From: Bacillota bacterium
Lineage (GTDB): Bacteria; Bacillota_E; Sulfobacillia; Sulfobacillales; Sulfobacillaceae
Length of the DNA stretch: 10,510 bases
Assembly: GCA_021802375.1 (NCBI GenBank)
Contig: JAKAAL010000083.1
Coordinates: 1 to 10,510 of the forward strand
Reading direction: 5' to 3'
Shown: positions 81 through 10,510 of the stretch, piece after piece
Layout of the letters: every line of letters begins with the position of its first letter
Position numbering within the stretch: position 1 is the stretch's first letter
Translations under genes and position numbers: made by a program
The notes under the pieces: generated by a model
Told to the model about the DNA's origin: nothing
The model's input: the letters and a program-made list of their open reading frames with translations, nothing else
Database searches by the model: none

Positions 81-1598
81 GTGAATACAGAAGAATTACG
101 GCAACATCGGAAGACGGCGGCTTCGGGCGGCCCGGAAAAATACCATCGTAAATTGGTGGACGATCACAAATTGTCGGTGCGACGTCGACTCGAATTGCTT
201 TTAGATCCCGGTTATGTAGAAGACGGCCTCTTGGCCAATGCCCTCGATGGGGGGTTGCCGGCGGATGGGGTGGTGACCGTGACCGGAACCATTGGGGGCC
301 GGACCGTGGTCGTGATGGCGAACGATCCGACCGTTAAAGCCGGTTCCTGGGGTTCGCGCACCGTCGAGAAGATCTTACGGATTCAAGAAAAGGCCATGGC
401 ACTCGAGTGCCCCATTTTTTATCTGGTGGATTCCGCCGGGGCCCGGATCACCGATCAGATTGAAATGTTCCCGGGTCGCCGCGGGGCGGGCGGAATTTTT
501 TACAATGAGGTTAAACTTTCGGGTAAAGTGCCCCAAATCTGTCTCTTGTTTGGTCCATCTGCGGCGGGAGGCGCGTACATTCCCGCGTTTTGCGATTTGG
601 TGGTGATGGTTGACCATAACGCCTCGATGTATCTCGGTTCGCCGCGGATGGCGGAGATGGTGATTGGCGAGAAGGTGAGTCTGGAAGAAATGGGCGGAGC
701 TCGCATGCATTGTACCATCAGTGGTATTGGGGACTTGCTGGCGACCAATGAAGAAGAAGCCATTCGATTAGGTCTCCAGTATTTTCGGTACATGCCAAAC
801 AACTTCAGGATGCGGCCCTTGTCGGTACCGACGCGATTGGCGCCCGAGGTGACTTGGGATCGGATCATTCCGGAAAATCAAAACGTGCCGTTCGACATGC
901 ATCGCGTGATTTTGGCGCTGGTGGATGAAGATAGCTGGTTTCCGATTAAACCGCTATTTGCCCCGGAAATGATTGTGGGATTGGCCCATCTGGATGGCCA
1001 ACCGATTGGCATCGTGGCCAATCAATCTAAGGTCAAGGGGGGAGTCCTATTTGGGGATTCGGCGGATAAAGCCGCGCGTTTTATCAATCTCTGCGATGCC
1101 TTTAACATCCCCTTATTGTTCTTGGCGGACGTGCCGGGATTTATGATCGGCACCAAAGTGGAGCGCGACGGCATCATTCGCCATGGGGCCAAATATATTG
1201 CCGCTGTGAGTGAGGCAACGGTGCCCAAAATTAGTGTGGTGGTCCGTAAAGCGTATGGCGCCGGTCTTTACGCCATGGCTGGCCCGGCTTTTGGGAGTGA
1301 CGTCACCATAGCGTTACCGACCGCGCAAATTGCGGTGATGGGCCCTGAAGCCGCGGTGAACGCCGTCTACTACAACAAGATTCATGAATTAGAAGGCGAC
1401 TCACGCCGGGCCTTTATCCAGGAAAAAGAGCGAGAATATCGCCAAGACATTGACCTATTGCGATTGGCCTCGGAATTGGTAGTGGATGAGGTGATCGAAC
1501 CCGATCACTTGCGCGACGAGCTCATCCAGCGCTTTCGGCTTTACCGGGATAAGAGGCGGGAGTTTAGTGACCGACGCCATCCCGTGACTCCGGTCTAG
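81..1598 (+). CDS. Acyl-CoA carboxylase carboxyltransferase (beta) subunit, methylcrotonyl-CoA carboxylase type
   Basis: This 505-aa protein has the full length and two-crotonase-fold layout of a biotin-dependent acyl-CoA carboxylase beta subunit. It would transfer CO2 from carboxybiotin to an acyl-CoA in the cytoplasm, probably 3-methylcrotonyl-CoA to 3-methylglutaconyl-CoA in leucine breakdown. The N-domain has the oxyanion-type glycine motif GPSAAGGAYIPAFCD (158-172) and the SMYLGSPRMAEMVIGE stretch (182-197). The C-domain has FLADVPGFMIG (347-357) and RKAYGAGLYAMAG (389-401). The pattern is close to Bacillus YngE as I remember it. The following HMG-CoA lyase and crotonase genes favour MCC over propionyl-CoA carboxylase, but substrate is not readable with certainty. 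The GTG start is set by the RBS at 66-73. The partner biotin carboxylase is not in the window. Confidence 0.9.
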   Translation: MNTEELRQHRKTAASGGPEKYHRKLVDDHKLSVRRRLELLLDPGYVEDGLLANALDGGLPADGVVTVTGTIGGRTVVVMANDPTVKAGSWGSRTVEKILRIQEKAMALECPIFYLVDSAGARITDQIEMFPGRRGAGGIFYNEVKLSGKVPQICLLFGPSAAGGAYIPAFCDLVVMVDHNASMYLGSPRMAEMVIGEKVSLEEMGGARMHCTISGIGDLLATNEEEAIRLGLQYFRYMPNNFRMRPLSVPTRLAPEVTWDRIIPENQNVPFDMHRVILALVDEDSWFPIKPLFAPEMIVGLAHLDGQPIGIVANQSKVKGGVLFGDSADKAARFINLCDAFNIPLLFLADVPGFMIGTKVERDGIIRHGAKYIAAVSEATVPKISVVVRKAYGAGLYAMAGPAFGSDVTIALPTAQIAVMGPEAAVNAVYYNKIHELEGDSRRAFIQEKEREYRQDIDLLRLASELVVDEVIEPDHLRDELIQRFRLYRDKRREFSDRRHPVTPV

Positions 1599-1630
1599 AA
1601 ACATTAAGGGTGTGCGAAGGAGGGACTTTT

Positions 1631-2557
1631 ATGGACCACTGGCAGTATCCAGACTCGGTGTCGATCAAAGAAGTAGGGCCTCGTGATGGGCTACAGGCGG
1701 AGCCCCGCGTGATGGACACGGCGTATAAGATTCAACTGGTCGATCAACTGTCGGCAGCGGGATTGCCTCGCATTGAGGTGACGTCGTTTGTGAGTCCCGA
1801 GTGGTTGCCACAGATGGCAGACGCGCAAGCGGTAATGGAGGGAATTGCCCGTCGACCCGGCACCATCTATTCGGTCTTGGTACCCAATTTAAAGGGTGCC
1901 GAGCGCGCGCTCGCGTGCCATCCTGATGAAATCACACTGTTTTTGTCGGCGAGTCAGACGCACAACATGAAGAACGTGCATCGAACCATTGAGGATTCGT
2001 TGGACGGGTTTCACCGCATTATGGATCGGGTCGCGGGGACCGTTCACGTGTCTGCGGTGATTGTGACGGCCTTTGGGTGTCCCTATGAGGGAACGGTGCC
2101 AGAAGCCAATGTGCTGGACTTGGCGAAGGAACTCCGGAACTTAGGGATCACCGAAATGACCTTGGGGGATACCGTCGGAGTGGCGCACCCGCGTCAAGTT
2201 TTTGACTTGGTCCGAAGATTCATGACGGAATTACAAGATGTACAGCTCGGGCTTCACTTTCATGACAATCGCGGCACCGCGTTAGCCAATTTGGTGGCGG
2301 CGCTTACGGCCGGAGCTTCGCGTTTTGAGACCGCATTGGGAGGAATTGGGGGTTCGCCGTTCTCCCCGGGAGCCGGGGGCAATTTGGCCACGGATGACGC
2401 GGTATATCTCTTGGAATCGATGGGAGTACACACCGGGGTCGACCTCGAGCGCTTGATTGCCATTACGGGGGGCCTGGTGGATCGACTCGAACACCCCGTC
2501 CCTTCCCGCGTGTATCAAGCGGGAGGCCGGATGGTGCCGAAAGGGGTGCCCTCGTGA
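1631..2557 (+). CDS. HMG-CoA lyase family protein (active-site Cys replaced by Ser)
   Basis: This 308-aa TIM-barrel protein of the HMGL-like family would cleave 3-hydroxy-3-methylglutaryl-CoA to acetyl-CoA and acetoacetate, the last step of leucine degradation. Visible motifs are EVGPRDGLQ (14-22, with catalytic Arg18/Asp19), the metal-binding LHFHDNRG (His209, His211), and GGIGGSPFSPGAGGNLATDD (237-256) with the metal-ligand Asn251. In characterised lyases the flexible loop reads GGCP[FY]A and its Cys is catalytic. Here the same place is Ser242. I chose the ATG at 1631 because AAGGAGG (1617-1623) precedes it by 7 nt; the longer reading from 1610 would run through that RBS. It lies 32 nt after the carboxyltransferase and overlaps the next gene by 4 bp. 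The fold is certain, but the exact reaction is less so because of the Ser. Confidence 0.85.
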   Translation: MDHWQYPDSVSIKEVGPRDGLQAEPRVMDTAYKIQLVDQLSAAGLPRIEVTSFVSPEWLPQMADAQAVMEGIARRPGTIYSVLVPNLKGAERALACHPDEITLFLSASQTHNMKNVHRTIEDSLDGFHRIMDRVAGTVHVSAVIVTAFGCPYEGTVPEANVLDLAKELRNLGITEMTLGDTVGVAHPRQVFDLVRRFMTELQDVQLGLHFHDNRGTALANLVAALTAGASRFETALGGIGGSPFSPGAGGNLATDDAVYLLESMGVHTGVDLERLIAITGGLVDRLEHPVPSRVYQAGGRMVPKGVPS

Positions 2558-3327
2558 ACATTGAGGTGGAGCGTCACGACGCAATCGTGCGACTGGCGAT
2601 TAATCGGCCCCAGGTGCGTAACGCCTTGAACACGGAGACGATTCGGGAGTTGAATCAGGCGTTTTTGCAGTGGGGGCACGATCCTACGGTTCATGCCATC
2701 ATTCTAACTGGGATTGGCGACAAGGCATTTTGTGCGGGGGCCGATCTTAGCGAAGTGCGGCAACTATCTTCCGTAGAGGCGGTCAGAAGTTATTTTGGTG
2801 GGATTGCCGAACTCATCCAAACCATGGCATCGATTCCTCCTTTAGTGATTGCCGCAGTGTTTGGCTATACCTTGGCGGGAGGGATGGGGTTAGCGGCCGG
2901 GGCGGACCTTTTGGTGGCAGCCTCAGACACCCAATTCGGCCTGCCAGAAATTAAGATTGGATTATTTCCGATGGTGGTCATGGCTCCCATTGTGCGGCTA
3001 ATCGGGAAACGCCGTGCCTTGGAACTACTCATGAGTGGCCGTATGGTCGATGCTCCTACAATGGAACAATGGGGTTTTTGTAATCGGGTGGTGGCGCCGG
3101 ATCAGGTGCAGCCACAAGCGCTGGATTTGGCGCGGGCCGTAACCTCGGGCAGTTCGACGATTGCTCGGCTCGGCAAAGAAGCGTTTCGCTGGTCTGAGGA
3201 TCTCAGCTATGAGCAAGCCTTGCACTATTTACAAAACATGGTATCACTCGTCGCCCTTACGGAAGACTCGCGCGAGGGCGTTGCGGCGTTTTCGGAACGG
3301 CGTGCTCCGAACTGGAATCAACGATGA
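2554..3327 (+). CDS. Enoyl-CoA hydratase/isomerase (crotonase) family protein, possible methylglutaconyl-CoA hydratase
   Basis: This 257-aa crotonase fold is of normal length. It shows the N-terminal RPQVRNALN (19-27), the CoA-binding/oxyanion segment KAFCAGADLSE (57-67), the second oxyanion strand FGYTLAGGMGLAAGADL (103-119) and LPEIKIGLFPM (130-140). Glu132 matches the second catalytic Glu of hydratases. The first catalytic Glu, expected in a GGG-x-E-L motif, is Gly112 here. Context suggests hydration of 3-methylglutaconyl-CoA to HMG-CoA (AUH/YngF role), but the missing Glu leaves isomerase, hydrolase or another crotonase chemistry open. The GTG start sits inside the lyase stop (GTGA overlap) with AAAGGGG 7 nt upstream, so translation is probably coupled to the lyase. 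Confidence 0.85.
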   Translation: MNIEVERHDAIVRLAINRPQVRNALNTETIRELNQAFLQWGHDPTVHAIILTGIGDKAFCAGADLSEVRQLSSVEAVRSYFGGIAELIQTMASIPPLVIAAVFGYTLAGGMGLAAGADLLVAASDTQFGLPEIKIGLFPMVVMAPIVRLIGKRRALELLMSGRMVDAPTMEQWGFCNRVVAPDQVQPQALDLARAVTSGSSTIARLGKEAFRWSEDLSYEQALHYLQNMVSLVALTEDSREGVAAFSERRAPNWNQR

Positions 3328-3401
3328 AAAGCCTGCACCCTAATGAGGGCACCAAGATGGAAAAGTTAGGACAATTCTTCGAGTAAATTGCTTGATCATA
3401 A

Positions 3402-3430
3402 CTGAATTCTCGCGCAAGTCGTTGTAGAAT
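3402..3430 (+). promoter_or_regulatory. Candidate sigma-A-type promoter for the acetyl-CoA synthetase gene
   Basis: A -10 element TAGAAT (3425-3430, 5/6 to TATAAT) lies 17 nt after a weak -35 CTGAAT (3402-3407). It is in the 132-nt gap between the crotonase and the synthetase, 29 nt before the ATG. No rho-independent terminator is visible after the crotonase, so read-through from the upstream operon is also possible. The rest of the gap shows no clear operator. Confidence 0.42.
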
Positions 3431-3459
3431 AAAATGGAATCGATGAAAGGAGGGTTAAA

Positions 3460-5496
3460 ATGGCCAACAATCAGAACGTGAATCCCCGAGACATTGAGGT
3501 CCATTGGCGGGAGGAGGATTATTACGAGCCTCCCGTGTCTTTTGTCCAACAGGCAAACCTGAAGGATCCCGAGGTGTTTCGGCGGTTTGATTTGGATCAC
3601 TTCCCAGAGAGCTTTACCGAATACGCGAACCTTCTAGATTGGGACCGGACCTGGGACACCGTGCTAGACGCAGCAAATCCGCCGTTTTGGCGATGGTTTG
3701 TGGGAGGACGCCTGAATGCTTCATACAACTGTGTCGATCGCCATGTCTCCCGCCACCATAGCAAGGTGGCCTATTATTTTGTGGCCGAACGGGAGTCCGA
3801 CCCCATTACTGCGGTGAGTTACCAGGAACTCTATTGGCGCGTCAATGAATTTGCGGCCTTATTACGGGATTTCGCCGGAGTGAAGAAAGGGGATCGGGTC
3901 ACTATCCATATGCCGATGGTGGTGGATTTACCGGTGGCGATGCTGGCATGTGCTCGGCTCGGTGCCATCCATTCGGTGGTCTTCGGCGGTTTTAGTGGTC
4001 AAGCCTGTGCCGATCGGATTGTAGACTCGGAATCGTCTTTACTCATTACCATTGACGGGTATTACCGCAATGGGAAATGGCTCGACCACAAAGAAAAAGC
4101 CGATGTGGCGGTGACCAAAGCCGCCGAACAGGGTCAAAAAGTGGATCGGGTCTTGATTTTTGAACGAAATGCAGGAAGCTATGGCGGGGCACCCTTGGTC
4201 GAAGGCCGCGACGTCGTGGTGAACGAGGTCTTACCTCAATATCGGGGGGCTCGGATCGACCCCGAATCCATGCCGGCCGAAGATCCGTTGTTTCTCATGT
4301 ATACGTCGGGATCCACCGGTAAACCCAAAGGGATCCAGCATGGGACGGGCGGGTATCTCTCTTATGCGGCGGCCACTTGCAAGAATATCTTGGACATCCA
4401 GCCTAACGACGTCTATTGGTGTATGGCGGACATTGGCTGGATTACTGGGCACTCGTACATCGTTTATGGTCCGTTGGCCCTTGGGGCCACCTCGGTTTTA
4501 TATGAAGGGGGACCTACTTATCCCGATGCCGGACGTCCATGGCGCATCGCTGAGCGGCTCGGGGTGAACATCTTTCATACATCTCCGACGGCGATTCGCA
4601 GCCTACGTCAACATGGGGACGCCATTCCGAGGCAGTATGCCTACCATTTTAAACTCATGGTGACCGTAGGCGAACCCATCGAACCGGACGTGTGGCGGTG
4701 GTATTACAACGTGATTGGCAAGGGGGAAGCGGCCATTGTCGATACGTGGTGGCAAACCGAAACCGGAGGATTCATGTGCAGCACGGTGCCGGCACTCCAA
4801 GCGATGAAGCCCGGGAGCGCGGGGCCGGGAATTCCCGGGATTCATCCCGTGGTCTATGACGAGGATGGGAAAGAGGTGGAACCGGGGTCCGGCGAAGGCG
4901 GCAACATTTGCATCCGAAACCCGTGGCCCGGGATCGCCCAGACGATTTGGAAAGACCCCGATCGATTCGTGCGGACGTACTACGAGAAATACAACAAGAA
5001 CCCCGAGAGTCGGGATTGGAGGGACTGGCCATACATGGCTGGCGACGGGGCGATGTTGGCGGCGGATGGGTACTTTCGTATCTTAGGGCGCATTGATGAC
5101 GTCATTAATGTGGCAGGGCATCGCCTGGGGACCAAGGAACTCGAGTCTTCCGTTCTACAAGTCCCGGGAGTGGCCGAAGCTGCCGTGGTGGCGGCCTACG
5201 ACGAAATTAAGGGAAGTATTCCCGAAATCTATGTATCGGTCCATGCTGGAGCCACGCCGGATAGTGGTCTTTCGCAAAAGATTGTGGATGCCATTGTGCG
5301 GGAAATTGGTCCCATCGCTCGCCCGCGCCATGTGTGGATTGTGCCCGACCTCCCAAAGACGCGATCCGGCAAGATTATGCGCCGGATTTTGGCCTCTATC
5401 TCCGACCACCGAGAAATTGGAGATGTGACCACGCTGTCCAACCCAGAAGTGGTCGAGGTGATTCATCAGCTGGTCGGATCCGAAAGCGGATCATAA
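3460..5496 (+). CDS. acsA: Acetyl-CoA synthetase (AMP-forming)
   Basis: This 678-aa ANL-superfamily adenylating enzyme would convert acetate + ATP + CoA to acetyl-CoA + AMP + PPi in the cytoplasm. The N-terminal ACS region is complete. The P-loop YTSGSTGKPKG is at 281-291, and the DTWWQTETGG motif is at 428-437, where the second Trp (431) narrows the acyl pocket to acetate in known Acs enzymes. GRIDDVINVAGHRLGT (543-558) forms the hinge and CoA region. KTRSGKIMRRIL (633-644) carries the catalytic Lys638, which is the reversible acetylation site in Acs proteins. A segment of about 10 residues rich in Trp/Arg/Asp (about 513-523) precedes the MAGDG motif and is absent from the enterobacterial enzyme as I recall it. 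AAAGGAGGG (3446-3454) sets the ATG. An acetate transporter gene follows 38 nt downstream. Propionate use is less likely given Trp431. Confidence 0.93.
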   Translation: MANNQNVNPRDIEVHWREEDYYEPPVSFVQQANLKDPEVFRRFDLDHFPESFTEYANLLDWDRTWDTVLDAANPPFWRWFVGGRLNASYNCVDRHVSRHHSKVAYYFVAERESDPITAVSYQELYWRVNEFAALLRDFAGVKKGDRVTIHMPMVVDLPVAMLACARLGAIHSVVFGGFSGQACADRIVDSESSLLITIDGYYRNGKWLDHKEKADVAVTKAAEQGQKVDRVLIFERNAGSYGGAPLVEGRDVVVNEVLPQYRGARIDPESMPAEDPLFLMYTSGSTGKPKGIQHGTGGYLSYAAATCKNILDIQPNDVYWCMADIGWITGHSYIVYGPLALGATSVLYEGGPTYPDAGRPWRIAERLGVNIFHTSPTAIRSLRQHGDAIPRQYAYHFKLMVTVGEPIEPDVWRWYYNVIGKGEAAIVDTWWQTETGGFMCSTVPALQAMKPGSAGPGIPGIHPVVYDEDGKEVEPGSGEGGNICIRNPWPGIAQTIWKDPDRFVRTYYEKYNKNPESRDWRDWPYMAGDGAMLAADGYFRILGRIDDVINVAGHRLGTKELESSVLQVPGVAEAAVVAAYDEIKGSIPEIYVSVHAGATPDSGLSQKIVDAIVREIGPIARPRHVWIVPDLPKTRSGKIMRRILASISDHREIGDVTTLSNPEVVEVIHQLVGSESGS

Positions 5497-5534
5497 AAAT
5501 CAGATAATCGAAGAAAACCAAGGGGAGGGATACA

Positions 5535-6122
5535 ATGTCAGCGAAACTGGGAAATGCGGCGCCGTTGGGTTTGGCGGGGTTTGCGTTTACAACCTGGATG
5601 CTTAGTATGATTAACGCGGGATGGTATGATTCTAAAAGTCTTGGAATAGTGATCGCCCTGGCCATGGCTTACGGAGGGACGGCACAGATGGTGGCCGCAG
5701 TCATGGAATTCCGTCGTGGGAACACATTTGGCACCGTAGCATTTTTTTCCTATGGGGCCTTTTGGTGGTCTTTTGCACTGTTCGCTCATTACTTTGGAGC
5801 AGTAGTGCCGGCCTCGTTTGTCGGATGGTACCTCCTGGTATGGGGGGTTTTTACATTCTATATGTGGATAGCCACATTGCGAGCCAACATGGCACTACAA
5901 CTGATATTTCTGGCCCTGTGGGTGACATTTTTCCTGCTCGCAATCGGCGCGTGGGGTGTAGGTGGGATGACCGTATTGGGTGGATATGTAGGGCTCATTA
6001 CCGCAGTTCTGGCTTTTTATCTTTCGGCTGCCGAGGTGATTAATGAAGCATTCGGGCGGACGGTATTGCCCATTGGCCCGTTTACGAAGCCGGCGTCGGA
6101 GCCCGCTGCGCATAGTGCCTAA
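5535..6122 (+). CDS. Acetate uptake transporter, GPR1/FUN34/YaaH (SatP) family
   Basis: This 195-aa, very hydrophobic protein has about six predicted membrane helices, the family's usual size and topology. The N-terminus has GNAAPLGLAGFAFTTWML, a variant of the family signature NPAPLGL (Ala for the first Pro, positions 7-12). Later come AYGGTAQMVAAVMEFRRGNTFG and SYGAFWW, matching the GGxAQ...G-NTF and SYGxFW patterns of SatP/YaaH. The family moves acetate or succinate with protons across the cytoplasmic membrane. Its place 38 nt after the acetyl-CoA synthetase fits an uptake-plus-activation pair in one transcript. A GGGGAGGG RBS lies just before the ATG. Ammonia or urea channel families (AmiS/UreI) are similar in size, but the motifs favour the acetate family. 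Confidence 0.85.
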   Translation: MSAKLGNAAPLGLAGFAFTTWMLSMINAGWYDSKSLGIVIALAMAYGGTAQMVAAVMEFRRGNTFGTVAFFSYGAFWWSFALFAHYFGAVVPASFVGWYLLVWGVFTFYMWIATLRANMALQLIFLALWVTFFLLAIGAWGVGGMTVLGGYVGLITAVLAFYLSAAEVINEAFGRTVLPIGPFTKPASEPAAHSA

Positions 6123-8142: not shown

Positions 8143-8172
8143 TTGAATAATCTTTGGACTTTGGCATATAAT
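8143..8172 (+). promoter_or_regulatory. Sigma-A-type promoter of the imuB-dnaE2 cassette
   Basis: A perfect -10 TATAAT (8167-8172) follows a -35-like TTGAAT (8143-8148, 4/6) with an 18-nt spacer. The start of transcription would fall near 8179, inside the SOS-box match. It is correctly placed for the TTG start at 8216 with a leader of about 37 nt. Confidence 0.7.
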
Positions 8173-8178
8173 CATAGA

Positions 8179-8192
8179 CAAACAAACGTTCC
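8179..8192 (+). promoter_or_regulatory. Probable LexA (DinR) SOS operator
   Basis: CAAACAAACGTTCC matches the Bacillus SOS box CGAACRNRYGTTYG at 12 of 14 positions; the mismatches are position 2 (A for G) and position 14 (C for G). It starts about 7 nt after the -10 hexamer, so bound LexA would cover the transcription start. Context (error-prone polymerase genes downstream) makes a chance match unlikely. Confidence 0.68.
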
Positions 8193-8215
8193 AACACCGA
8201 AAGAAGGGCATTTTC

Positions 8216-9301
8216 TTGGGCATTATATACTGGCAACTTGGTCATTTGACTCGAGAACATGCTCCGCGACCTGTAGGCCCTTTTGTGGTGTTTCAAGGGG
8301 ATCGGGTATTTGACACAGATGCCCAAGGGTGGGATCTAGGAGTACGGGCCGGAATGTTATTAAAGGAATTAAAGTGGCGGTATCCCCAGGCAGTCATGGT
8401 GCCGTGGCACACACTACATTATCAAGAAGGACACCGTGAACGCATGCGTTGGCTTCAACAGCATGCCGTGTCCTACTTTCAGGAAGATCCCCGTGAAGGA
8501 TGGTGGGAGTGGCCTCGAATTCATCCGCAGATTTTAGAATCACTTATGGCAGAAGTTATCCCTAGATGGGCGTTACGAGTTGATATTGGGGTGGCTAGTC
8601 ATCCCGTATTAGCTCAATGGGCTTGTGCCCAAGGTGGCGTTTTGGGACTTAAAACCTGGCCCCTTAAAGGAATACGCGTATTTGTGATTCACCCGCAAGA
8701 AGAATCCCTATATTGGCCCGAGGTGCCTTTAGAGTATGTCGAGAAACGTTGGCCGAAGCGTATCTATGAATGGCGGCATCGCGGGTGGACCCGGGTGGGA
8801 GAAGTGCCTGGGCTCCTGGAACAGGTCAAATCCTTGCCGATCGCTACGGGATCGACCCCGGTATCGATTCGCATTACGCGACCGTTAGAAGGGGGCGTCG
8901 AGCAAGGTTTAGGGGAAATTATGGCACAGATGGCAAAAGAATTAGTCGACCGACTACGACAAGAAAATCAGGGGATGGCGCACGTGCGTTTGACATGGGA
9001 AACGCCGCGAGGCATTGAGACGCGGGAACGCTATTGGCCTGAGGTGGTGTCTGAACGGGATCGGATTATTAGTCGAGTATTAACCCTGTTGAAGATCTTG
9101 CCGACAGCGCCTCCGGATAAAGTCGTTTTGGAGGTAGACGATCCGGAATGTGTCAAAGCCCAACAATTGAATTTGTGGAAAATGGACAAAAAAAGTCAGG
9201 TGAATACTCTGGCCTATCCCTCCTACTTTGACATCCCTCGACGCGAGCTTCATTTACAATTCTGGGATATTTGGCGAATGCGGGAATCGCATGCGCCATG
9301 A
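8216..9301 (+). CDS. imuB: ImuB-like, degenerate Y-family DNA polymerase homologue
   Basis: This 361-aa protein has the outline of a Y-family translesion polymerase without its active site. GWDLGVRAGMLL (38-49) matches the 'YEARxxGVxxGM' palm/finger motif, and DIGVASHPVLAQWACA (123-138) matches 'SIGIAxNKLLAKIAS'. WPEVPLEYV...GWTRVGEVPGL (167-200) is the helix-hairpin-helix thumb, and residues 214-310 fit the little finger. The DxD motif at the N-terminus is replaced (IIYWQLGHL, 3-11), and no S-x-D-E follows in 85-105. In ImuB proteins this loss is usual; they bridge the beta clamp and DnaE2. QQLNLW (316-321) resembles a beta-clamp-binding motif (QLxLF). Translation starts at TTG 8216 with AGAAGG (8202-8207) 8 nt upstream; the promoter position excludes an earlier start. 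ATGA overlap joins it to the next gene. A highly diverged DinB is the alternative. Confidence 0.72.
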   Translation: MGIIYWQLGHLTREHAPRPVGPFVVFQGDRVFDTDAQGWDLGVRAGMLLKELKWRYPQAVMVPWHTLHYQEGHRERMRWLQQHAVSYFQEDPREGWWEWPRIHPQILESLMAEVIPRWALRVDIGVASHPVLAQWACAQGGVLGLKTWPLKGIRVFVIHPQEESLYWPEVPLEYVEKRWPKRIYEWRHRGWTRVGEVPGLLEQVKSLPIATGSTPVSIRITRPLEGGVEQGLGEIMAQMAKELVDRLRQENQGMAHVRLTWETPRGIETRERYWPEVVSERDRIISRVLTLLKILPTAPPDKVVLEVDDPECVKAQQLNLWKMDKKSQVNTLAYPSYFDIPRRELHLQFWDIWRMRESHAP

Positions 9302-9531
9302 AAGCCCTAGAAAAAGTGTGGGTTCGCCGTCAAGTGCCTTATGCCTTCGTGTGGAGACAGCAATATGTATCGATCGTCAGAGTACTAGATTATTGGCGAG
9401 ACATCGGAGAATGGTGGCGAGGAGAACCCGAATTATGGTTCTGGAGAATTCAGGGACAAGAGGACAGTGTGTTTGAATTGGCCTGTAACCCCCAAACCCA
9501 TCAGTGGTGGATGTATCACGTTTATGATTGA
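9298..9531 (+). CDS. Small DUF6504-like protein of the mutasome cassette
   Basis: This 77-aa protein is rich in Trp and Tyr (YAFVWRQQYVSIVRVLDYW, EWWRG, LWFWRI, WWMYHVYD). From memory, this order (WR-x-Y-x-V-x-x-VLD-W ... EWW ... Y/FWR ... VFEL ... WW-VYD) is that of DUF6504, a small domain found beside, or fused to, ImuB-like Y-family proteins in Actinobacteria. Its biochemical role is unknown to me; a role in assembling the ImuB-DnaE2 complex is inference. The ATG at 9298 overlaps the imuB stop by 4 bp (ATGA), which points to translational coupling. I prefer it to a TTG at 9271, which would add a nine-residue extension inside imuB. No strong SD of its own is seen. Confidence 0.62.
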   Translation: MKALEKVWVRRQVPYAFVWRQQYVSIVRVLDYWRDIGEWWRGEPELWFWRIQGQEDSVFELACNPQTHQWWMYHVYD

Positions 9532-9537
9532 GGAGGG
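9530..9537 (+). promoter_or_regulatory. Ribosome binding site of the 50-aa ORF
   Basis: GAGGAGGG overlaps the TGA stop of the preceding gene and lies 7 nt before GTG 9545. The strength of this site is the main evidence that the following tiny ORF is translated. Confidence 0.7.
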
Positions 9538-9544
9538 TCCTAAA

Positions 9545-9697
9545 GTGGCTAAAATTATTCCGTTTCCTCCGACAGAGGAATTAGCGGAGGTAAGACGCAG
9601 TGGGTATCAGGTAACAATAGGTCGCCATCATTATCGAATTCGCCCCCATTCTTTAATGGCCTCGGTGTGGCATTGGGTACAAGAATTGTGGGAATAG
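9545..9697 (+). CDS. 50-aa ORF of unknown function between the DUF6504-like gene and dnaE2
   Basis: I do not recognise this protein. It starts VAKIIPFPPTEEL and ends with a basic/aromatic part (GYQVTIGRHHYRIRP, then SVWHWVQELWE). It has no signal peptide, membrane segment or cysteine. The GTG at 9545 is chosen because GAGGAGGG ends 7 nt upstream; the frame stays open to 9467, but that would overlap most of the DUF6504-like 3' end. Its last 10 bp overlap the start of dnaE2, so its translation could deliver ribosomes to dnaE2, which has no good SD. It occupies a place where other mutasome operons may carry accessory genes. It may be a functional small protein or mainly a coupling leader. Confidence 0.58.
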   Translation: MAKIIPFPPTEELAEVRRSGYQVTIGRHHYRIRPHSLMASVWHWVQELWE

Positions 9698-10510
9698 GGG
9701 TAGAACTTCATGCTCATTCGGCTTTTTCATTTTTGGCGGGTGCTTCGACACCGCGGCAACTGGCAGCCGAGGCTTCACGTCAAGGGATTGGGACGCTGGC
9801 ATTAACCGACACGTTTCGGTTATCGGGGGTGCCAACCTTTTTAGAGGCGGCGACCGAAGTTGGTATCAAGGCGGTTGTCGGAGCCGAAATTGTGGTCGAA
9901 GATTTGGGGCAACTGGTGCTGTTGGTACCCCAAACCGAAGCCTACGCCGACCTCACACGTCTACTTACCGAAGCACTATTAAGTTCACCGAGGAAACAAC
10001 CCCAGGTCCAATGGGCAACCCTCGAACGTTACGGACGCAATCTAATAGCTCTGACCGGTGACCGGCAAGGTATTATCGCACGGCCTTGGCTACAAGGACG
10101 TCGTGCACAAGTCCCGGAAATCACAGAACGTCTCCTTAATATTTTTGGAACCCGTAATTTATTTATCGAACTCACCGTGAATTATTTGCCTGGAGATCGC
10201 TTGTTGTTTCAGTTTTTAAATGATGTAGCCGAAGCTAACCAATTGCAGTTGGTCGCAACCGGCGCCGTACGCTACGCACGTAAAGAAGATTTTGGACTGT
10301 TTGATCTCATGACTTGCATTCGGACCGGACAACGGGTTGAAGAGGTGGGACCGGAGCGCTATCTTAACGCAGAAAATTATCTGAAGCCTTGGACGGCGAT
10401 GGAGTCTGCTTTAAAGCCATGGCCTAAGGCAATCCGTAATACCCAGGCACTCGCCGAACGGTTAGAGACCCCCGATATTTTACGTAAGCCTCATTACCCC
10501 AAGTTTTCGG
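9688..10510 (+). CDS. dnaE2: DnaE2/ImuC-type error-prone DNA polymerase III alpha subunit (N-terminal part, runs off the window)
   Basis: 274 codons are visible, open to the right edge. They form the PHP domain of a C-family polymerase. ELHAHSAFSFLAGAS (6-20) is the DnaE2-style 'ELH-x-x-S-x-FSFL-x-GAS' opening, followed by LALTDTFRLSGVPTF (37-51), VVGAEI (63-68), FIELTVNYLPGD (159-170) and LVATGAVRYARKEDFGLFDLMTCIRTG (188-214 region). The metal-cluster His8/His10 and Glu67 are kept. The 'TDH' His is Thr42, and 'ATNDVHY' has become ATGAVRY, losing an Asp and a His, so this PHP is unlikely to be a working exonuclease. DnaE2 carries out error-prone translesion synthesis with ImuB. GTG 9688 best fits the known N-terminus; it overlaps the preceding ORF by 10 bp and lacks a clear SD. 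The polymerase active-site aspartates are beyond the window. Confidence 0.85.
   Translation, partial: MGIGVELHAHSAFSFLAGASTPRQLAAEASRQGIGTLALTDTFRLSGVPTFLEAATEVGIKAVVGAEIVVEDLGQLVLLVPQTEAYADLTRLLTEALLSSPRKQPQVQWATLERYGRNLIALTGDRQGIIARPWLQGRRAQVPEITERLLNIFGTRNLFIELTVNYLPGDRLLFQFLNDVAEANQLQLVATGAVRYARKEDFGLFDLMTCIRTGQRVEEVGPERYLNAENYLKPWTAMESALKPWPKAIRNTQALAERLETPDILRKPHYPKFS

Follow-up and report, generated by a model that had tools for sequence, protein, structure and literature searches.

Operons that lack ImuA and combine an inactive Y-family polymerase carrying a RecA-NT-like motif with a standalone ImuB-C and DnaE2 are described in passages of PMC6511836. The exemplar named there (Timinskas and Venclovas 2019) and in parts of PMC12926913 (Timinskas et al. 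2026) is the DnaE2X of Kyrpidia tusciae, ADG05750.1. According to passages of the latter paper, RecA may replace ImuA in such systems by docking on the RecA-NT motif of the inactive polymerase (iPolY); more generally, the literature puts forward RecA or ImuA, bound to this motif, as a structural component of DnaE2-type mutasomes. Here we analyse a 10,510-nucleotide stretch of Bacillota DNA (contig JAKAAL010000083.1, the window in what follows) in which four rightward genes, recognised by reading of open reading frames (ORFs) and by profile searches, form a related cassette: iPolY, imuB-C, a gene for a 50-aa protein that we call p50, and the 5' part of dnaE2. We consider, with a probability of about 75%, that the cassette is a damage-inducible mutasome operon and a divergent branch of the published type, with a scaffold that is devoid of RecA-NT. 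By its sequence the window belongs with the order of Sulfobacillus harzensis (G012), which we take to be named Sulfobacillales.

Like DnaE2X, the cassette lacks ImuA and combines DnaE2 with an unfused ImuB-C and a dead Y-family protein in a single operon. However, DnaE2X has the RecA-NT motif, which was not found in the Sulfobacillales iPolY, and the Sulfobacillales cassettes have extras: in many members a p50 gene separates imuB-C from dnaE2, and a GAF-GGDEF gene often lies downstream. The ImuA-ImuB-DnaE2 (ImuC) systems of Proteobacteria and Actinobacteria have a LexA-type box, a dead Y-family scaffold, DnaE2 and an ImuB-C domain in common with it, whereas the Sulfobacillales cassette has no recognised ImuA, its ImuB-C is unfused and no RecA-NT was found in its scaffold. 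The Streptomyces pair DinB2 (iPolY) and DnaE2B, described in passages of PMC6511836, is also a dead Y-family protein beside DnaE2 with no ImuA, but it has no ImuB-C, while the Sulfobacillales cassette has both ImuB-C and p50. The likeness to YqjW-YqjX(YolD)-RecA of B. subtilis, i.e. a Y-family protein with a small co-encoded subunit, is an analogy only: here the Y-family protein is dead, DnaE2 is present, and p50 did not match a YolD profile in what was a weak test.

The first-pass annotation of the window had proposed a distinct, ImuA-less version of damage-induced mutagenesis. The lack of a recognised ImuA stands, the novelty does not, as the layout is already published (passages of PMC6511836 and PMC12926913) and DUF6504 occurs together with DnaE2 in other Bacillota; what differs here is the apparent loss of RecA-NT and the gain of p50. 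The name Sulfobacillus does not occur in the main text of PMC12926913, a count that leaves its supplements aside, and its authors may have seen these sequences. A literature search gave no paper joining Sulfobacillus with ImuB or DnaE2; the one paper on Sulfobacillus and translesion is unrelated by its title.

The scaffold and the RecA docking motif

The iPolY gene (8216..9301, + strand) encodes a 361-aa protein that, by sequence, fold and motif comparison, is predicted to be a catalytically dead, ImuB-like Y-family scaffold. Pfam gave sub-threshold matches to IMS and IMS_C, and a fold search with an AlphaFold2 model that is poor overall (pLDDT 70.3, pTM 0.34) listed PDB matches that are Y-family polymerases by title, in agreement with the Y-family assignment made before; a PDB search with the 361-aa sequence gave no match. 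A large protein database holds 18 relatives at E<=0.001, and no relative was found in viral contigs. An alignment with two motif-intact Pol IV-like proteins shows that all 19 family members have lost the first catalytic Asp as well as that of the DE pair. The motifs behind this judgement are those that we assume to be catalytic in the Y-family.

Alignments of the C-terminal part show two conserved elements. One is QLNLW (residues 317-321, codons at 9164..9178, + strand), which resembles a beta-clamp-binding motif; Q317 is invariant across 19 sequences and the pentapeptide reads QLxLW/QLxWW in the family, the clamp motif consensus being given as QxxLF in a passage of PMC12926913. The other is the box RRELHLQFWDIWR (residues 342-354, codons at 9239..9277, + strand), whose family pattern RRE...WD.WR resembles RREQML.F.DP.R of other Bacillota iPolYs.

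It is between these elements that the family departs from the published type. The C-terminus of the scaffold in other Bacillota runs from the clamp motif through a RecA-NT-like helix and strand to the RRE box. With a leave-one-out matrix, all 12 other Bacillota iPolYs had RecA-NT at its place (no more than 1 of 500 shuffles scored as well), as against none of the 45 rows from the window family; these rows are 19 of alignment A1 and 26 order-wide loci, some nearly identical, with L171 excluded as cut, and the test left out the iPolYs of L044, L046, L048 and L057. The sole family row at p<=0.02 was L185, where the matched stretch precedes the clamp motif. The spacer from clamp motif to RRE box measures 24-28 aa in 18 of 19 family rows as opposed to 41-47 aa in nine Bacillota rows, i.e. 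it is about 17 residues shorter (P0018, L039 and L058 are unmeasured, L045 was mis-measured as 56, and L053 was dropped as its ORF is not an iPolY). The scaffold of the Sulfobacillales family seems to have lost the usual RecA docking site, and we infer that the mutasome may be independent of RecA.

As for active Y-family polymerases, a strong match to the canonical type (IMS) was present in only two of the 12 genomes G001-G012, and most of these genomes seem to be without Pol IV, though some may be incomplete.

The search for ImuA

No ImuA was recognised beside the cassette or in the genomes of relatives, which agrees with what had been noticed from the window itself. The genome-wide result rests on 42 genomes of the order, i.e. 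relatives of the window, many of them metagenome-assembled. The ImuA profile NF033429 gave hits in 12 of 12 and then in 41 of 42 genomes, none of them over the cut-off. The frames hit are nearly all single and of RecA length (343-448 aa), the exception being one of 177 aa in G338; there was a second, weak hit with internal stop codons in G319 and, in the 12-genome scan, a second hit in G007 (E=0.16). Their identity as RecA was confirmed within the loci of G001-G012 and is taken from length elsewhere. A normal RecA was read in five of the 12 recA loci, and the N-terminal RecA pattern was found in 10.

As a control, NF033429 found ImuA on Rhizobium and Burkholderia plasmids and nothing on those of Streptomyces and Microbacterium. 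A profile of four ImuA sequences, the Streptomyces and Microbacterium types among them, matched in 22 of 42 genomes at E<=0.01, hitting RecA-length frames and others, many of 222-266 aa; the ten matches of non-RecA length that were examined read as RadA. An ImuA hidden elsewhere in the genome was accordingly rejected, the two profiles having given RecA-like hits, and RadA at the ten places.

The radA gene itself is interrupted in all nine genomes in which the whole region was seen (L199-L207; e.g. L201:2433-3211) by a stretch of about 0.75-0.8 kb. The ends of this stretch are strongly conserved; to the eye it has hairpin-like segments, and it encloses an open frame of some 220-260 aa, of which the only one tested, that of L201, had no Pfam match. 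By its core motifs the interruption resembles a group I-type intron; Rfam gave no such match.

Partner genes, promoter and neighbourhood

The second gene, imuB-C (DUF6504, PF20114; 77 aa; 9298..9531, + strand), matches PF20114 at E=2.3e-9. It is an ORF separate from iPolY, and the two meet in an ATGA overlap; the start was placed by comparison with relatives, a longer alternative version beginning at TTG 9271. Passages of PMC3765255 describe ImuB-C as a domain of about 80 residues that occurs on its own and is linked to the SOS response. Among four plasmid Y-family proteins beside DnaE2, PF20114 matched the C-terminus of the Rhizobium protein, weakly (E=0.0035), and gave no C-terminal match in those of Burkholderia, Streptomyces and Microbacterium; the control genome Caulobacter had a match above cut-off, seen at genome level. 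The link of PF20114 to the C-termini of ImuB proteins is weak but present, and DUF6504 would correspond to the standalone ImuB-C.

PF20114 was present in 77 of 299 sampled Bacillota genomes, and 16 of 20 selected Bacillota stretches with DUF6504 also carry a DnaE2-like gene. One of the 16 is S. harzensis and the other 15 are further Bacillota; an additional ORF lies between the two genes in L047 and L051. Two extra DUF6504 matches in G012 were not counted, one being inside a TPR/glycosyltransferase protein and the other close to genes for an enoyl-CoA hydratase and an MFS protein. A literature search found no paper that mentions DUF6504.

The third gene encodes p50 (9545..9697, + strand), with the motifs K-I-I-P-F-P and G-x-H-x-Y-R-I-R-P-x-S. 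The stop codon of imuB-C lies within TGAGGAGG, the likely ribosome-binding site of p50, and this, together with the ATGA overlap, confirms that the genes are joined by overlaps and shared stop/RBS signals as first noticed. p50 is present with an open frame in 12 loci including the window, with motifs of the types K-[IV]-I-x-F-P and Y-x-[ILV]-R-x-x-S, and the ratio of non-synonymous to synonymous changes (dN/dS) is about 0.26 for the window and L001 and about 0.3 for L003 and L004, many other pairs being saturated at synonymous sites. Judged by this conservation, p50 is a protein family under purifying selection. Two of the 12 copies (L007 and L009) have ACG at the start position where the others have ATG or GTG. 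A database search gave 18 relatives at E<=1, every one at 6.1e-12 or better, and order-wide there were matches at E<1e-4 in 17 of 27 stretches. The profile search did not find p50 in the eight most divergent stretches (L183-L190), while L164 and L170 end too soon to be informative and L011 also ends before the p50 site. Elsewhere in Bacillota there were marginal hits in two of 197 sampled genomes (E of 4e-4 and 1e-3, one with an internal stop), which we take as chance.

Pfam and other profile comparisons recognised no known family for p50, the best Pfam match being DUF6074 (sub-threshold, E=0.17). Two identities were tried and rejected. As a YolD protein p50 reached an hhalign probability of 0.1% and had no Pfam YolD match, in a weak test based on six YolD sequences without the arm; as the carrier of the lost RecA-NT motif its best case had 10 of 300 shuffles as good (L004). 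Nor does p50 appear to compensate for that loss, as the motif is also missing in L183-L190, where p50 was not found. The suggestion that ImuA had been replaced by the 50-aa protein lacks support on the same ground, and p50 has no RecA-family match. The 50-aa ORF had been rightly listed as a member of the cassette; its status as a conserved family had been missed, as had the missing RecA-NT motif in the scaffold family. Probably p50 is an accessory subunit acquired inside the order.

The fourth gene, dnaE2 (9688..10510, + strand, GTG start at 9688), overlaps the p50 ORF and continues past the window end, so that the window holds its 5' part with the PHP domain. In L006, L010, L012 and L013 the ATG of p50 lies inside the end of imuB-C and the ATG of dnaE2 overlaps the p50 stop, an arrangement that suggests translational coupling of the cassette genes. 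The orthologue at L001:1518-4607 is 87% identical over the shared part. The catalytic motifs PDIDIDF and KLDLLSLR, before which the window copy ends, are intact in 10 of 10 full-length Sulfobacillus-type DnaE2s; judged by these two motifs the polymerase is competent. In a tree that contained no named DnaE2X reference sequence, the Sulfobacillus-type DnaE2s form a single clade (support 1.0). This clade groups at 0.89 with 13 of the 15 Bacillota DnaE2s of similar layout, and the four references (Thermomicrobium, Streptomyces-plasmid, Rhizobium and Burkholderia) stand apart.

The cassette is preceded by a sigma-70-type promoter-like site, TTGAAT-18-TATAAT (8143..8172, + strand, 10/12 matches), and, just 3' of the -10 element, by a LexA-type box of the Gram-positive SOS kind, CAAACAAACGTTCC (8179..8192, + strand). 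The LexA consensus is the one that we assume for this group. The match noticed in the window recurs: all 14 orthologous promoters have CGAACAAAYGTTCC or a variant of it at -30 to -43, and TATAAT-like elements can be read directly 5' of the box in many orthologous upstream regions. Further loci have a box at most 120 bases upstream of the matched start, at varying distance, with at most two mismatches in 17 of 26, with three in four and with four or five in five. Genome-wide, GAACAAAYGTTY is rare, with 16 sites in 12 genomes compared with six for the reversed control, and eight of the 16 are the mutasome promoter. LexA-type genes are present in all 12 genomes. The conserved box points to membership in the LexA (SOS) regulon, in which LexA would exert the control. 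On the whole, profiles, fold, motifs and box bear out the first view of an SOS-type cassette with a degenerate Y-family protein, a DUF6504 protein and DnaE2 in Bacillota.

Two other GAACAAAYGTTY sites precede radical-SAM-type genes (L124 in G004, assigned by Pfam, and L130 in G003, assigned by similar translation). In the most divergent members (L183, L184 and L186-L190), palindromes such as AGAACATATGTTCC or GGAACATAAGTTCC mostly lie at a greater distance upstream of the matched start, which may reflect a shifted start or a variant LexA box.

A genome-collection scan turned up 13 loci in records titled 'Bacillota bacterium' or Sulfobacillus, and in the 10 that reach a full-length dnaE2 the order iPolY, imuB-C, dnaE2 is intact. 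The iPolY profile matches 37 of the 42 genomes, with two copies in G322 and G331. dnaE2 lies downstream in 22 of 27 order-wide stretches; of the other five, L164 and L170 stop shortly after iPolY or imuB-C, and no dnaE2 was seen in the 1.6-2.3 kb remaining after imuB-C in L188-L190. There is 1.6-1.7 kb of other DNA between two cassette members in L171, L178, L180 and L187. After dnaE2, a member of one gene cluster follows in all 10 near loci with sequence there, within 18-169 bases in eight; a further ORF stands in between in L005, and L003 has a 136-aa piece at a distance of 1.5 kb. Two tested members are GAF-GGDEF (diguanylate cyclase-like) proteins, and a similar gene occurs in 11 of the 17 order-wide stretches that extend far enough (1.98 kb or more), five matches starting 0.7-1 kb away (examples are L013:14516-16549, L001:4636-6711 and L165:5377-7410). 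This linkage hints at a tie between cyclic di-GMP (c-di-GMP) signalling and damage tolerance, a functional link being unproven. At the other end of the window (81-6122) there is an apparently ordinary acyl-CoA/acetate cluster with a carboxyltransferase, an HMG-CoA lyase-like protein, a crotonase, an acetate-CoA ligase and a GPR1/FUN34/YaaH-family protein.

Weighing the explanations

We propose that LexA would repress the single cassette promoter and that upon DNA damage the overlapping genes would be made together. The dead iPolY scaffold would hold the sliding clamp through QLxLW/QLxWW and recruit DnaE2 along with the separate ImuB-C subunit, p50 would join as an accessory subunit, and DnaE2 would copy across the lesion. 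Since the scaffold is without the RecA-NT helix, RecA would contribute at most through LexA cleavage or through a different surface. Gene content and order, the missing motif, the purifying selection on p50 and the conserved box are read from the sequence; transcription as one unit, LexA control, assembly of the complex, binding to the clamp, mutagenesis and the parts played by ImuB-C and p50 are predictions. A bolder version, in which ImuA and RecA docking were both lost and this RecA-uncoupled translesion complex is gated by other factors, such as p50 and perhaps the GAF-GGDEF (c-di-GMP) protein, is one that we put forward only tentatively and hold to be rather doubtful.

A number of observations weigh against the proposed reading. 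The clean separation by RecA-NT rests on 12 segments picked by eye. A matrix made from RecA only told the groups apart poorly: it was significant in three of 12 Bacillota iPolYs, scored high at residue 223 of the window iPolY, and in P0002 (1/300 shuffles) and P0015 (4/300) scored high across the clamp motif and the beginning of the spacer. Spacers in L181 and L187-L190 are longer by eye, about 30-36 residues, and therefore a short spacer alone is not universal. NF033429 misses the actinobacterial type of ImuA, and the four-sequence profile was used without a positive control. There is no clear LexA box at 13 lexA-type loci of the 12 genomes, and the recA loci gave two weak matches in one of 12 only (the L059 ORF was mis-picked), so the SOS circuit is not independently supported. 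The structure models of iPolY and p50 are both of low confidence, in L008 the contig runs on for 164 bases after imuB-C and shows no p50 there, and the DnaE2s of L053 and L057, both with DUF6504, fall outside the Bacillota clade as well as the reference group.

Some of these points would fit an ordinary DnaE2X-type mutasome, in which RecA docks via ImuB-C or via a segment too diverged to be recognised, with the 50-aa ORF as a minor addition specific to the lineage. The gene set is that of other Bacillota, with most of which the DnaE2 groups; the N-terminus of RecA is intact in 10 of 12 recA loci, some order-wide spacers exceed 28 aa by eye, and ImuB-C also contributes to ImuA binding in a mycobacterial model presented in a passage of PMC12926913. 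However, none of the 45 rows has RecA-NT and the spacer is about 17 residues shorter in 18 of 19, while other passages of PMC12926913 call RecA-NT critical for the binding of mycobacterial ImuB to ImuA'. We regard this explanation as a serious one, although somewhat below even odds.

Explanations centred on p50 fare less well. Its small size, its operon position and a basic-G-hydrophobic-P-F-P N-terminus conserved in part of the family would suit a stand-in for a UmuD'/YolD-type subunit whose N-terminal arm (KRGxVIPFP) enters the dead polymerase and gates the complex, as YolD arms are described to do in a passage of PMC12926913; but the hhalign comparison with YolD, which did not include the arm, and the lone sub-threshold DUF6074 match speak against it, the p50 model is of low confidence, and we find the idea unlikely. 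That the 50-aa ORF is untranslated and the cassette an eroding three-gene system could be argued from the ACG codons in L007 and L009, from the overlap with dnaE2, and from the failure to find p50 in L183-L190 and in what remains of L008. Nevertheless, the frame is open and the sequence conserved in 12 loci, dN/dS is well below 1 in close pairs, and there are the profile matches in 17 further stretches and the 18 database relatives, which make it very improbable.

A divergent, ImuA-less mutasome without RecA-NT remains the reading that we prefer. With strong matches to canonical Y-family polymerases in only 2 of 12 genomes, not all of them necessarily complete, the cassette may be the main translesion system of these bacteria. 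If the bolder, RecA-uncoupled version is true, the role of RecA as trigger of the SOS response would be separated from its supposed structural role in mutasomes. A natural, order-wide loss of ImuA and RecA-NT would be a direct test of the need for a RecA or ImuA contact.

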